A DNA stretch of 64,000 bases from Psychrobacter sp. PL19 (lineage in GTDB: Bacteria; Pseudomonadota; Gammaproteobacteria; Pseudomonadales; Moraxellaceae). Below the pieces are notes generated by a model, which saw only the letters and a list, made by a program, of their open reading frames with translations, ran no database searches and was not told the DNA's origin. Of this stretch, positions 1 through 2,442 are shown one piece after another (within the stretch, counting starts at the first letter, position 1; every line of letters begins with the position of its first letter). A program made the position numbers and the translations under genes. The stretch covers positions 620,001 through 684,000 of the forward strand of contig NZ_JAGING010000001.1 in the NCBI RefSeq assembly GCF_017875835.1. The letters run 5' to 3'.

Positions 1-756
1 GGTATTAAGCGGGTAGTGATTGCTGGTCTTGATCCCAATCCACAAGTTGCCGGTCGTGGAGTAGCCCTGTTAAAACAGGCTGGCATTGAGGTTATAGTTG
101 GGACATTAAATGCTCAGGCAGAAGCGTTAAATAAAGGGTTTTTAAAGGCCATGCGTACGCAAATGCCTTATGTGCGACTCAAGATTGCGACCAGTCTTGA
201 TGGTCGTACCGCGATGGCGACAGGCGAGTCAAAATGGATTACTTCAGCAGCCGCACGAGAAGATGTGCAGAAACTGCGTGCGCAAAGTGGCGCTATCATT
301 ACCGGAAGCTCGACTGTCATCGCGGATGATCCACAGTTAAATGTACGCTCTACCCAGTTAGGGGTAGCTCCTGAGCAAGTGCCTGTACCACTAATTGTGG
401 TACTTGATCGACGCAAGCGTTTAATACACGATGCGCAATCTTCTTATCGGTTATGCCGCCAACCAAAGACTTTATACTGGCGTGAAGACAATCTGCACCA
501 GCTACTACAAACGTTAGTCAGTGAGCACCAGTGCTATGAGGTATTAGTAGAGGCGGGTGCTAGTGTCGCAGGAAGTTTTTTGAGTCAGCAGCTAGTAGAT
601 GAGTTGATTGTTTATCAAGCGCCTTGCTTATTAGGCGCGCAAGCTCGAGCAATGGTTGAATTCAACCCCCTATCTTTAGCGCAGCAACTGCGTTTTGATT
701 ATCACAGCCATGAGCCAGTCGGTACTGATATTAAACTTACCTTACTGCCCCTCTAA
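1..756 (+). CDS. ribD: Bifunctional riboflavin deaminase/reductase RibD (5' truncated by window)
   Basis: RibD carries out the second and third steps of riboflavin synthesis: deamination of the pyrimidine, then NADPH reduction of the ribosyl side chain. The frame is open from base 1 (GIKRVVIAGLDPNP), so the gene starts outside the window and the internal GTG at 16 is not the start. What remains is the end of the deaminase domain (DPNPQVAGRG, then AGIEVIVG) and the whole reductase domain, starting near PYVRLKIATSLDGR and including TGSSTVIADDPQLNVR and a C-terminal VEAGASVAGSFL segment. The zinc-binding N-terminal portion, roughly 90-110 residues in this family, is missing. ribE lies 1 kb downstream on the same strand, separated by origin-like DNA, so the two are unlikely to share a simple transcript. 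Confidence 0.95.
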   Translation, partial: GIKRVVIAGLDPNPQVAGRGVALLKQAGIEVIVGTLNAQAEALNKGFLKAMRTQMPYVRLKIATSLDGRTAMATGESKWITSAAAREDVQKLRAQSGAIITGSSTVIADDPQLNVRSTQLGVAPEQVPVPLIVVLDRRKRLIHDAQSSYRLCRQPKTLYWREDNLHQLLQTLVSEHQCYEVLVEAGASVAGSFLSQQLVDELIVYQAPCLLGAQARAMVEFNPLSLAQQLRFDYHSHEPVGTDIKLTLLPL

Positions 757-856
757 ATAGCTAATATATCTAAATCAGCTGTGCATAAGTGCTTGGTTAT
801 CCACAATATTATCAAGTTGTGCTATAAATGTGGATAACTCCACTACTTTAAGTTAA

Positions 857-870
857 GTTTCACATGAAAC
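857..870. promoter_or_regulatory. parS-like site 1
   Basis: GTTTCACATGAAAC matches 13 of 14 bases of the chromosomal ParB-binding core GTTTCACGTGAAAC; the central G is A. It lies between DnaA boxes of the candidate origin. Confidence 0.65.
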
Positions 871-893
871 TGTGTATAACTTTATATAGTTAT

Positions 894-907
894 GTTTCAC
901 ATGAAAC
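894..907. promoter_or_regulatory. parS-like site 2
   Basis: A second GTTTCACATGAAAC, again 13 of 14 bases of the parS core, 37 bp after site 1 and in the same orientation. The pair flanks the start of the AT-rich core of the candidate origin. Confidence 0.65.
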
Positions 908-1239
908 TTTTAAATAACTAATAAACCGCTAATTCATAAAATAACCTTCTATTAATCAATGGTTTATCTAATAACCTGTACAGCCGTCACTCTATATATT
1001 AACAAGTGGATAGCTTGTGGATAACTATATGATAATAATGGTTTTAAATTAAAACAGTACACACAGTAAGTACTTATCCACAGTCCATTCCTGCTAGCTG
1101 CTTCGTTAAGTGTTAAATATACTTAGTTTTAAATTGAAAGCATTAGCCGACAGAGCCAAGTGAATCAAACATAGCCGCTGATTTAGTAATAACTGTCCTT
1201 AATGACGGGTATTAATGATTATAAGCAATAATATTTAGC

Positions 1240-1332: not shown

Positions 1333-1470
1333 TATAGTTAAAATACCTTAAAAACGCGACGGTACTGCTGGTATAAGCCTTTTGCAGCCTCTATCTGCGT
1401 AGGCACAGCAAGCAAGAAAAACTCATGCCAGCAGTAGGTTATGTATCGATATTACTTTTCATTGACTATA
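1333..1470 (-). repeat. 138-bp TATAGT repeat, copy 1
   Basis: One of five near-identical 138-bp copies in the window; this one is inverted relative to the copies at 16824, 47768 and 57830. It begins TATAGTTAAAATACC and ends CATTGACTATA. The centre is a long imperfect hairpin bounded by CTGCTGG and CCAGCAG. It has no coding capacity. Confidence 0.92.
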
Positions 1471-1586
1471 GTAGATTGTTAGAATAACCAATATTGATAA
1501 TTGGTAGATCTTGTTATTAATGTACGAGTGTAGTGCTATGCTAATGAGTAGTTATCATAAATTATCAGCTATTAAAAATGAGTTGT

Positions 1587-1758: not shown

Positions 1759-2442
1759 ATGTTTACAGGAATTATTGAAAGTGTGGGTAAAATTAAAGCT
1801 ATGGATCCCGTTGGTGGTGATATTCGCTTAATGATTGAATCTGACGACTTGGACTTTAGTGATGTGTCATTAGGTGATTCTATTGCTTCTAATGGTATCT
1901 GTCTCACGGTAGTAGATTTGGGTAGTAACTATTATGCTGTTGATGTTTCACGTGAAACTATTGCTTGCACTGCGCTAAAAGATTTAAAACCAGGTCATGT
2001 GGTGAATTTAGAAAAAGCCATGCTGCCAACCACACGTTTTGGTGGTCATATCGTTGCCGGTCACGTTGATGGCGTTGGTACTGTCAGTAAGCTTGAAAAA
2101 GATGCGCGTTCTATTTATATAGAAATCGAATTACCGCAAGAGTTGGCACATTATACCGCCACCAAAGGATCTATTACGCTCGACGGCATTAGTCTGACAA
2201 CCAATTTAGTACGTGACAATATTGTCTGTTTAAATATCATCCCACACACTGCTCAGATAACTAATATTTCTAAGCATTGGTTGTTAGGCGACAAGGTTAA
2301 TATTGAGGTAGATATTGTGGCACGCTACCTAGAACGCCTGTTAAACAAGTCGCAAACGGGAACAATGAATGCGGATACTGTAACGAGTCCGCAAAACCCT
2401 ATTACTGATGCTTTTTTAGCGGATAACGGCTTTATGAAGTAA
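1759..2442 (+). CDS. ribE: Riboflavin synthase, alpha subunit
   Basis: Converts two molecules of 6,7-dimethyl-8-ribityllumazine to riboflavin and the ribityl-uracil precursor. The 227 residues contain the two tandem lumazine-binding barrels typical of the family: the first opens with the invariant MFTGIIE at residue 1, the second with HIVAGHVDGVG near residue 97. A C-terminal tail of about 25 residues (SQTGTMNADTV...) lies beyond the second barrel. The AGAGG at about 1750 supports this ATG. The usual ribBA/ribH neighbours are not here. The codons for VDVSRETI contain a perfect parS core (1945-1958). An FMN riboswitch was looked for upstream and not seen; instead a 146-bp repeat sits there. 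Confidence 0.97.
   Translation: MFTGIIESVGKIKAMDPVGGDIRLMIESDDLDFSDVSLGDSIASNGICLTVVDLGSNYYAVDVSRETIACTALKDLKPGHVVNLEKAMLPTTRFGGHIVAGHVDGVGTVSKLEKDARSIYIEIELPQELAHYTATKGSITLDGISLTTNLVRDNIVCLNIIPHTAQITNISKHWLLGDKVNIEVDIVARYLERLLNKSQTGTMNADTVTSPQNPITDAFLADNGFMK
1945..1958. promoter_or_regulatory. parS site 3 (perfect core) inside ribE
   Basis: GTTTCACGTGAAAC is a perfect 14-base palindrome identical to the conserved ParB-binding core. With flanks it is 15 of 16 to TGTTTCACGTGAAACA. It is embedded in coding sequence, as many chromosomal parS sites are, and lies about 0.9 kb from the DnaA boxes. Confidence 0.85.

Follow-up and report, generated by a model that had tools for sequence, protein, structure and literature searches.

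Does the intergenic region between ribD and ribE of Psychrobacter sp. PL19 contain the chromosomal replication origin? The question is raised by a dense group of DnaA-type 9-mers in a 64,000-nucleotide stretch of this genome (hereafter the window), which corresponds to bases 620001–684000 of a single 3,119,997-bp contig. The original prediction placed a candidate origin there, within a riboflavin locus. The upstream gene is presumably ribD, judging from its protein family and the gene order, and the downstream gene is presumably ribE.

The cluster itself is a real and conserved element. Six matches to TTATNCACA, four of them exact copies of TTATCCACA, fall within 303 bp at positions 780–1082, just as had been reported, and the 64-kb window has no others on either strand. 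When the window was shuffled 1000 times with its dinucleotide content preserved, no 303-bp segment had more than three matches to TTATNCACA or more than two exact boxes. Similarly, the total number of TTATNCACA matches never exceeded three in 20,000 shuffles of the local 1,002-bp ribD–ribE gap. A chance cluster, already considered extremely unlikely in the original prediction, was therefore rejected. The other sequence features described for this region were also found (Table 1). GC content across 780–1082 is 0.287 compared to 0.43 in the window, the two ParB-like palindromes (hereafter parS-like) are both copies of GTTTCACATGAAAC, and the IHF-like site, AATCAATGGTTTA, fully matches the IHF consensus WATCAANNNNTTR.

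Table 1. Positions of features in and around the ribD–ribE gap of Psychrobacter sp. PL19 (window coordinates)
Feature	Position	Strand	Remarks
ribD (3′ part)	1..756	+	ORF; gene start about 300 bp left of the window
DnaA-box-like TTATGCACA	780..788	-	mean majority-base frequency 0.50 (unconserved in Psychrobacter)
DnaA box A, exact TTATCCACA	797..805	+	0–1 mismatch in register in 24/34 aligned Psychrobacter loci
DnaA box B, exact	829..837	-	0–1 mismatch in register in 25/34 Psychrobacter loci
parS-like palindrome 1, GTTTCACATGAAAC	857..870		0–1 mismatch in 31/34
DnaA box C, weak form TTATACACA	871..879	-	abuts parS-like palindrome 1; 0–1 mismatch to TTATACACA in 29/34
parS-like palindrome 2, GTTTCACATGAAAC	894..907		0–1 mismatch in 31/34
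IHF-like site AATCAATGGTTTA	954..966	+	full match to the consensus
DnaA box D, exact	1016..1024	-	exact in 33/34, one mismatch in 1/34
DnaA box E, exact	1074..1082	+	exact in 33/34, two mismatches in 1/34
Dispersed repeat, about 139 bp	1333..1471		outside the cluster
ribE (riboflavin synthase alpha), downstream gene	1759..2442	+	ORF; homologues found
parS-like TGTTTCACGTGAAAC inside ribE	1944..1958 (genome 621944–621958)	+	parS-like scan

The statement that there is no dnaA in sight holds for the window, but not beyond it. The dnaA gene (genome position 612232–613701, minus strand, start at 613701) lies about 7.1 kb to the left of the cluster, just outside the window. The leftward order, listed going left, is gyrB, recF, dnaN and dnaA, then a 585-bp gap to rpmH, and rightward from this gap come rpmH, rnpA, yidD, yidC, mnmE, nrdR, ribD, the cluster and ribE (gene names in this region are our presumptions from family resemblance and gene order). 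In PL19, the genes from rpmH to ribD are directed away from dnaA/rpmH. The dnaA/rpmH gap has an array of its own, consisting of four exact boxes plus variants, and two to five exact boxes are found there in each of 13 genomes. In an alignment of 12 such loci (11 from Psychrobacter and one from the genus group g7, which deviates in places), the gap keeps blocks such as CTGTGGATAACA, TTTTTTGNGGATAA and CCACAGNTTATCCACA along with AT-rich CCCAATAACAACAATA and TTATTAT blocks, and contains nearly invariant AT-rich stretches. Genome-wide, PL19 has 32 exact boxes versus 25 matches of a reversed-pattern control, and only two groups of four exact boxes within 500 bp, one at dnaA/rpmH and the other at ribD–ribE, plus one pair.

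Nucleotide skew points to the former site. Among twenty 20-kb stretches sampled across the PL19 genome, the six from 0 to 604 kb all have negative GC skew and the one at 604–624 kb has a slightly positive value; skew is positive in the nine between 700 kb and 2.22 Mb, and negative in the four between 2.4 and 3.02 Mb. Within 584–684 kb, the minimum of cumulative skew is at 614833. We then considered 57–70 kb stretches from PL19 and 12 relatives. In 12 of these 13 genomes, the minimum falls within a range of −0.5 to +3.5 kb relative to the dnaA start; G033 is the exception, with its minimum at the left edge of the stretch analyzed. In none of the 13 does the minimum coincide with ribD–ribE, where the original prediction would have it; in all of them it is at least 5.0 kb to the left of the end of ribD. 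A minimum next to dnaA is one of the outcomes that the original prediction named as refuting it. Skew at fourfold sites, a noisier measure than cumulative skew, is supportive. For plus-strand genes it is higher between rpmH and ribD than on the left arm in 10 of the 13 genomes, with one tie and two lower values. After pooling, the pattern is clear in the genus group g10 (between, 0.007; right, 0.015; left, −0.273), the two arms hardly differ in Psychrobacter (−0.001, −0.098 and −0.101, respectively), and in g7 the right arm is below the left (−0.061, −0.206 and −0.096). For minus-strand genes, each of the three pooled genera has higher coding-strand skew in the left arm than in the right arm, which fits the expectation if forks leave from dnaA/rpmH. 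DNA stability, on the other hand, does not discriminate between the two sites, as the most easily melted 60 bp of the ribD–ribE cluster are as unstable as those of dnaA/rpmH. Skew, gene orientation and the conserved array make dnaA/rpmH the likely oriC. Several boxes of the ribD–ribE cluster, whose high affinity is suggested by their sequence, would then lie outside oriC, as is typical of titration-type loci.

How widespread is the cluster? We counted it as present if at least three boxes with no more than one mismatch occurred within about 303 bp of the ribD–ribE gap. The group g1 was identified as Psychrobacter, the genus of the window, by loci identical to named records; g7 and g10 are presumably Moraxella-like and g15 is presumably Acinetobacter. 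The final set excludes five duplicate loci and also G052, which gave no match of any kind, control query included; it contains four g10 loci that were included at a later stage. The seven g7 rows represent six genomes (L067 is the same contig as one of genome G042). The conservation in related genomes that the original prediction called for was indeed observed: the cluster is present in 34 of 35 Psychrobacter loci, in 18 of 20 g10 loci and in all six g7 genomes. The only Psychrobacter exception, L028, is cut by a contig end and has two boxes visible. Outside these groups, the cluster was found in none of the 22 ribD–ribE loci from 11 other genera of the family (a subset of the 63 other-genus genomes in which ribE was matched; in loci lacking an identified ribD, coverage was limited to the 600 bp before ribE). 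Two exact boxes within 1 kb before ribE did not occur in any of 65 further loci, mostly from other gammaproteobacteria, among which two Photobacterium loci have three one-mismatch boxes each.

Psychrobacter loci have the boxes, insofar as present, arranged as A(+), B(−), C(−), D(−), E(+). In the 34 aligned loci, D and E are nearly invariant and keep both orientation and spacing, while the outer boxes A and B vary more. The same is evident at the level of alignment columns: mean majority-base frequency is 0.92–1.00 for D, E, C and both palindromes, 0.84 for A, 0.85 for B and 0.74 for the IHF-like site, compared to 0.48 for columns outside the elements between A and E (797–1082). The spacing between B and C is 42 in 27 of the 34 loci, and that between D and E is 57–59 in all of them. 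In the g7 and g10 loci having the D–E pair, the spacing is either 46–48 or 57–60, the two classes being about one helical turn apart. The IHF-like site is less constant, with a full match in register in 17 Psychrobacter loci, a loose match in 10 and neither in seven. None of the four aligned g10 loci has a full match in register, and two of them have a reverse match elsewhere in the gap.

The origin-proximal position of the cluster is conserved among these relatives, as would be expected of a datA-type locus. The distance from the end of rpmH to the end of ribD is 5.7–7.4 kb in the 13 genomes used for the skew analysis; an exception is G056 (about 31 kb). In this g7 genome, mnmE, nrdR, ribD and the cluster form one block at about 31 kb from rpmH, with another 4.5 kb to ribE. 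G050, also of g7, retains the cluster 3′ of ribD at about 6 kb from rpmH and has ribE on a different contig. Since the cluster stays with ribD in both cases, it is not tied to ribE. Two g10 genomes illustrate reduction: in G063 the ribD–ribE gap keeps two boxes, and in G036 it is 168 bp long and has no box, with six exact boxes at dnaA/rpmH. Loss of the cluster in G036 means that it cannot be the sole origin.

Several observations were made alongside. The genomes G036 and G063 (g10) and G050 and G056 (g7) contain 59–82 exact copies of TTATCCACA each, versus 4–10 for the reversed-pattern control; this genome-wide excess of DnaA-box 9-mers in g7 and g10 contrasts with the figures for PL19. The g7 contig BMPS01000009.1 (L067), titled Streptomyces cinereus JCM 3040, bears dnaA, rpmH, ribD and ribE resembling those of the window's family, and its species label looks wrong. 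In g15 genomes, arrays of TTTrAATTyAAA palindromes and scattered DnaA boxes are present 3′ of purK (L223:1515–2216; L227–L256), about 17 kb from rpmH in G110. At least eight palindromes were found in 24 of the 30 purK loci and at least three exact boxes in three. We considered these arrays as a possible analog of the ribD–ribE cluster; however, at least three exact boxes within 700 bp occur in just these three of 30 loci, so at that threshold there is no conserved equivalent. As for the gap itself, it is 1,005 bp long in the window versus 322–576 bp in complete gaps of other Psychrobacter. It is longer probably because of the repeat listed in Table 1 and a second repeat at 1587–1733, which is 74% like 2459–2605. 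The first repeat is MITE-like and has four further copies in the window (93–96% identity) and 15 copies (90–97%) in 10 of the 19 other sampled 20-kb stretches; it is probably a lineage-specific insertion in the species of the window.

We next focused on the parS-like sites. Box C is flanked by them on both sides, and this composite is present in all 34 spanned Psychrobacter loci. The first site directly abuts box C in 29 of the 34 loci and is separated from it by 6–11 bp in the other five; the gap after box C is 4–5 bp in 26 loci and 11–14 bp in eight. The spacing between C and the second site is 13–14 in 25 loci, 22–23 in six and different in three. In one species (L029), the unit is tandemly duplicated to parS–box–parS–box–parS. 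In PL19, the stretches covered at 564–636 kb contain fifteen parS-like 14-mers, two of which flank box C; the 17 other sampled 20-kb stretches contain none. Moreover, matches of a stricter genome-wide scan (15-mer, one mismatch) are confined to the same 564–636 kb. Across 13 origin regions, the density of parS-like sites is about 25-fold higher in the ribD–ribE gap (23 in 6,029 bp versus 116 in 767,164 bp). In addition, nine of 12 relatives have a parS-like site 0.3–0.5 kb to the right of the middle of the gap. Based on the clustering around the origin and the parS consensus, the palindromes may be expected to bind ParB. The genome has a single ParB-family match (2555533–2556081, at 2.556 Mb), which is not adjacent to oriC but about 1.2 Mb away along the shorter arc of the chromosome. 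The flanked-box composite is absent from every g7 and g10 locus tested, and several g10 clusters that retain boxes (L047, L051, L139, L146 and L259) have no parS-like sites. ParB input therefore cannot be general.

A literature search on the ribD–ribE locus returned nothing on it among the matches listed, with most subscription papers outside its scope, and the available portions of PMC7174414 and PMC10225481 do not mention it. We compared the cluster with loci known from other bacteria. E. coli datA is described in the cited passages as a non-coding DnaA-box cluster with a single IHF site, located near oriC, conserved in position and dispensable for viability (PMC4585315, PMC10950094, PMC5295017). 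Like datA, the Psychrobacter cluster is a group of DnaA boxes outside oriC, origin-proximal and conserved in position. Unlike datA, which maps to 94.7 min, it is 7 kb from the likely oriC, has embedded parS-like sites, and its IHF-like site is not universal. Extra DnaA-box clusters outside oriC are also present in B. subtilis and Streptomyces. In B. subtilis, removal of all six clusters was reported to cause early initiation, yet another passage of the same review denies them a significant role in initiation (PMC5295017); elsewhere, in the part cited, they are called analogous to datA (PMC10950094). In contrast to B. subtilis, the exact-box list of PL19 gives one such locus besides dnaA/rpmH, and this locus has a regular architecture, parS-like palindromes and an IHF-like site. 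Precedents for a DnaA-binding control locus can be seen, by analogy, in datA and in the clusters of B. subtilis and Streptomyces (PMC5295017, PMC10950094, PMC4585315).

For the parS part of the cluster, the nearest precedents, again by analogy, are parS of Caulobacter crescentus and rctA of Vibrio cholerae. According to the passage cited, Caulobacter parS is about 8 kb from Cori and is bound by DnaA, and DnaA-ATP is needed for partitioning (PMC6399470). As in Caulobacter, parS-like sites and DnaA boxes share one short segment near the origin in the 34 spanned Psychrobacter loci, although this is not general in g10. The differences are that the Psychrobacter cluster has more boxes, arranged in a regular register, that some related clusters have no parS-like site, and that 13 other parS-like sites surround the PL19 origin. 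At V. cholerae rctA/parS2-B, a near-origin site binds both the initiator and ParB, and ParB2 binding relieves its inhibitory effect (PMC3141006). However, that site belongs to a secondary chromosome whose initiator is RctB instead of DnaA.

Alternatives were also considered. One is that the locus is mainly a segregation element, a parS locus where DnaA acts on ParB–parS to license or trigger segregation, any effect on initiation being minor. The parS–box C–parS composite, invariably present in Psychrobacter, and the Caulobacter case as described in the cited part of PMC6399470, with its comparable distance to the origin, speak for it. Against it, four of the g10 clusters named above (L139, L146, L047 and L051) keep DnaA boxes without a parS-like site, and 12 of the 13 other parS-like sites around the PL19 origin have no DnaA box (up to one mismatch) within 40 bp. 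We consider this explanation rather unlikely. An auxiliary origin, in the sense of a second origin capable of firing or of half of a long-range bipartite oriC, has a similarly low probability in our estimate. P. aeruginosa is reported to have two autonomously replicating elements, only one of them essential in laboratory conditions, and the cluster resembles the second of them in being a second origin-like element (PMC4403523). The number of boxes, the AT-richness and a stretch that melts as easily as that of dnaA/rpmH would fit such a role. Nonetheless, the skew minimum is near dnaA/rpmH in 12 of the 13 genomes and never at ribD–ribE; furthermore, G036 lacks the cluster, and G056 has it 31 kb away from rpmH. 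Moreover, apart from the IHF-like site, we saw no conserved unwinding-type sequence between the boxes in the ribD–ribE alignment, whereas dnaA/rpmH keeps its CCCAATAACAACAATA and TTATTAT blocks.

The cluster might also be a DnaA-regulated promoter region of ribE that ties riboflavin synthesis to the cell cycle, given that it is upstream of ribE in most loci read. However, the distance from box E to ribE ranges from about 26 bp (L047) to 685 bp (the window), and G050 and G056 have the cluster next to ribD, apart from ribE. A scan of 700–1800 gave no excess of promoter-like sites (three versus 5.1 expected) and no terminator-like site. We regard this possibility as very improbable. A structured RNA or riboswitch was rejected as well, there being no Rfam match at E ≤ 1 over 700–1800. 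Finally, the box cluster, AT-rich core, IHF-like site and nearby parS-like sites notwithstanding, a primary chromosomal origin at ribD–ribE, as originally predicted, was rejected as very improbable in view of skew, gene orientation, the conserved dnaA/rpmH array, natural loss in G036 and the 31-kb separation in G056.

The explanation that we favor, and consider fairly probable, is that the cluster represents an oriC-proximal, non-origin DnaA-binding regulatory locus, similar to datA or to DnaA-box clusters, with ParB input in Psychrobacter. It builds on the observed sites, their conservation, orientation and spacing, the closeness to the likely oriC, the embedding of parS-like sites, and the loss or relocation in relatives; from these we infer binding, titration or hydrolysis, and ParB–DnaA crosstalk at the cluster. 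Counting against it are the inconstancy of the IHF-like site, the g10 clusters with boxes and no parS-like site, the variability of A and B, the loss in G036, the reduction in G063, and a lowest melting stability equal to that of dnaA/rpmH, which would suit an auxiliary origin part. The strong outer boxes, the weak inner box, the IHF-like site between them and the helically quantised spacing suggest a single nucleoprotein complex. An IHF-induced bend between C and D would help DnaA to form a single helically phased complex on boxes A–E, and this complex would sequester or inactivate DnaA in the manner of a DnaA-box cluster or datA. The genome encodes Hda and three HU/IHF-family genes without internal stops, among which HU and IHF are not told apart. 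Because the cluster is only 7 kb from oriC, it would be copied almost at once after initiation; its capacity would double and re-initiation would be restrained at the very time when removal or inactivation of DnaA is of most use. In Psychrobacter, loading of ParB onto the pair of parS-like sites could adjust DnaA occupancy at the weak box C, or DnaA could adjust ParB, and either way initiation would be linked to segregation. A more specific version, which we put forward only tentatively, is a ParB-gated DnaA switch. Here, a weak DnaA box within the origin-proximal cluster would be clamped between two parS sites in helical register, and ParB loading on the freshly replicated origin would set how much DnaA is held or inactivated.

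Few bacteria are known in which control loci that bind DnaA outside the origin have been characterized in detail. The present case also calls for caution in finding origins by box counting, as the one group of boxes seen in the window most likely does not mark the origin. If the ParB-gated switch is real, a single DNA element of a primary chromosome that is driven by DnaA would tie segregation to the following round of initiation. With its built-in, regularly spaced parS-like sites, this conserved Psychrobacter locus makes a link between replication control and ParB-mediated segregation testable, in an environmental laboratory strain, by small deletions.
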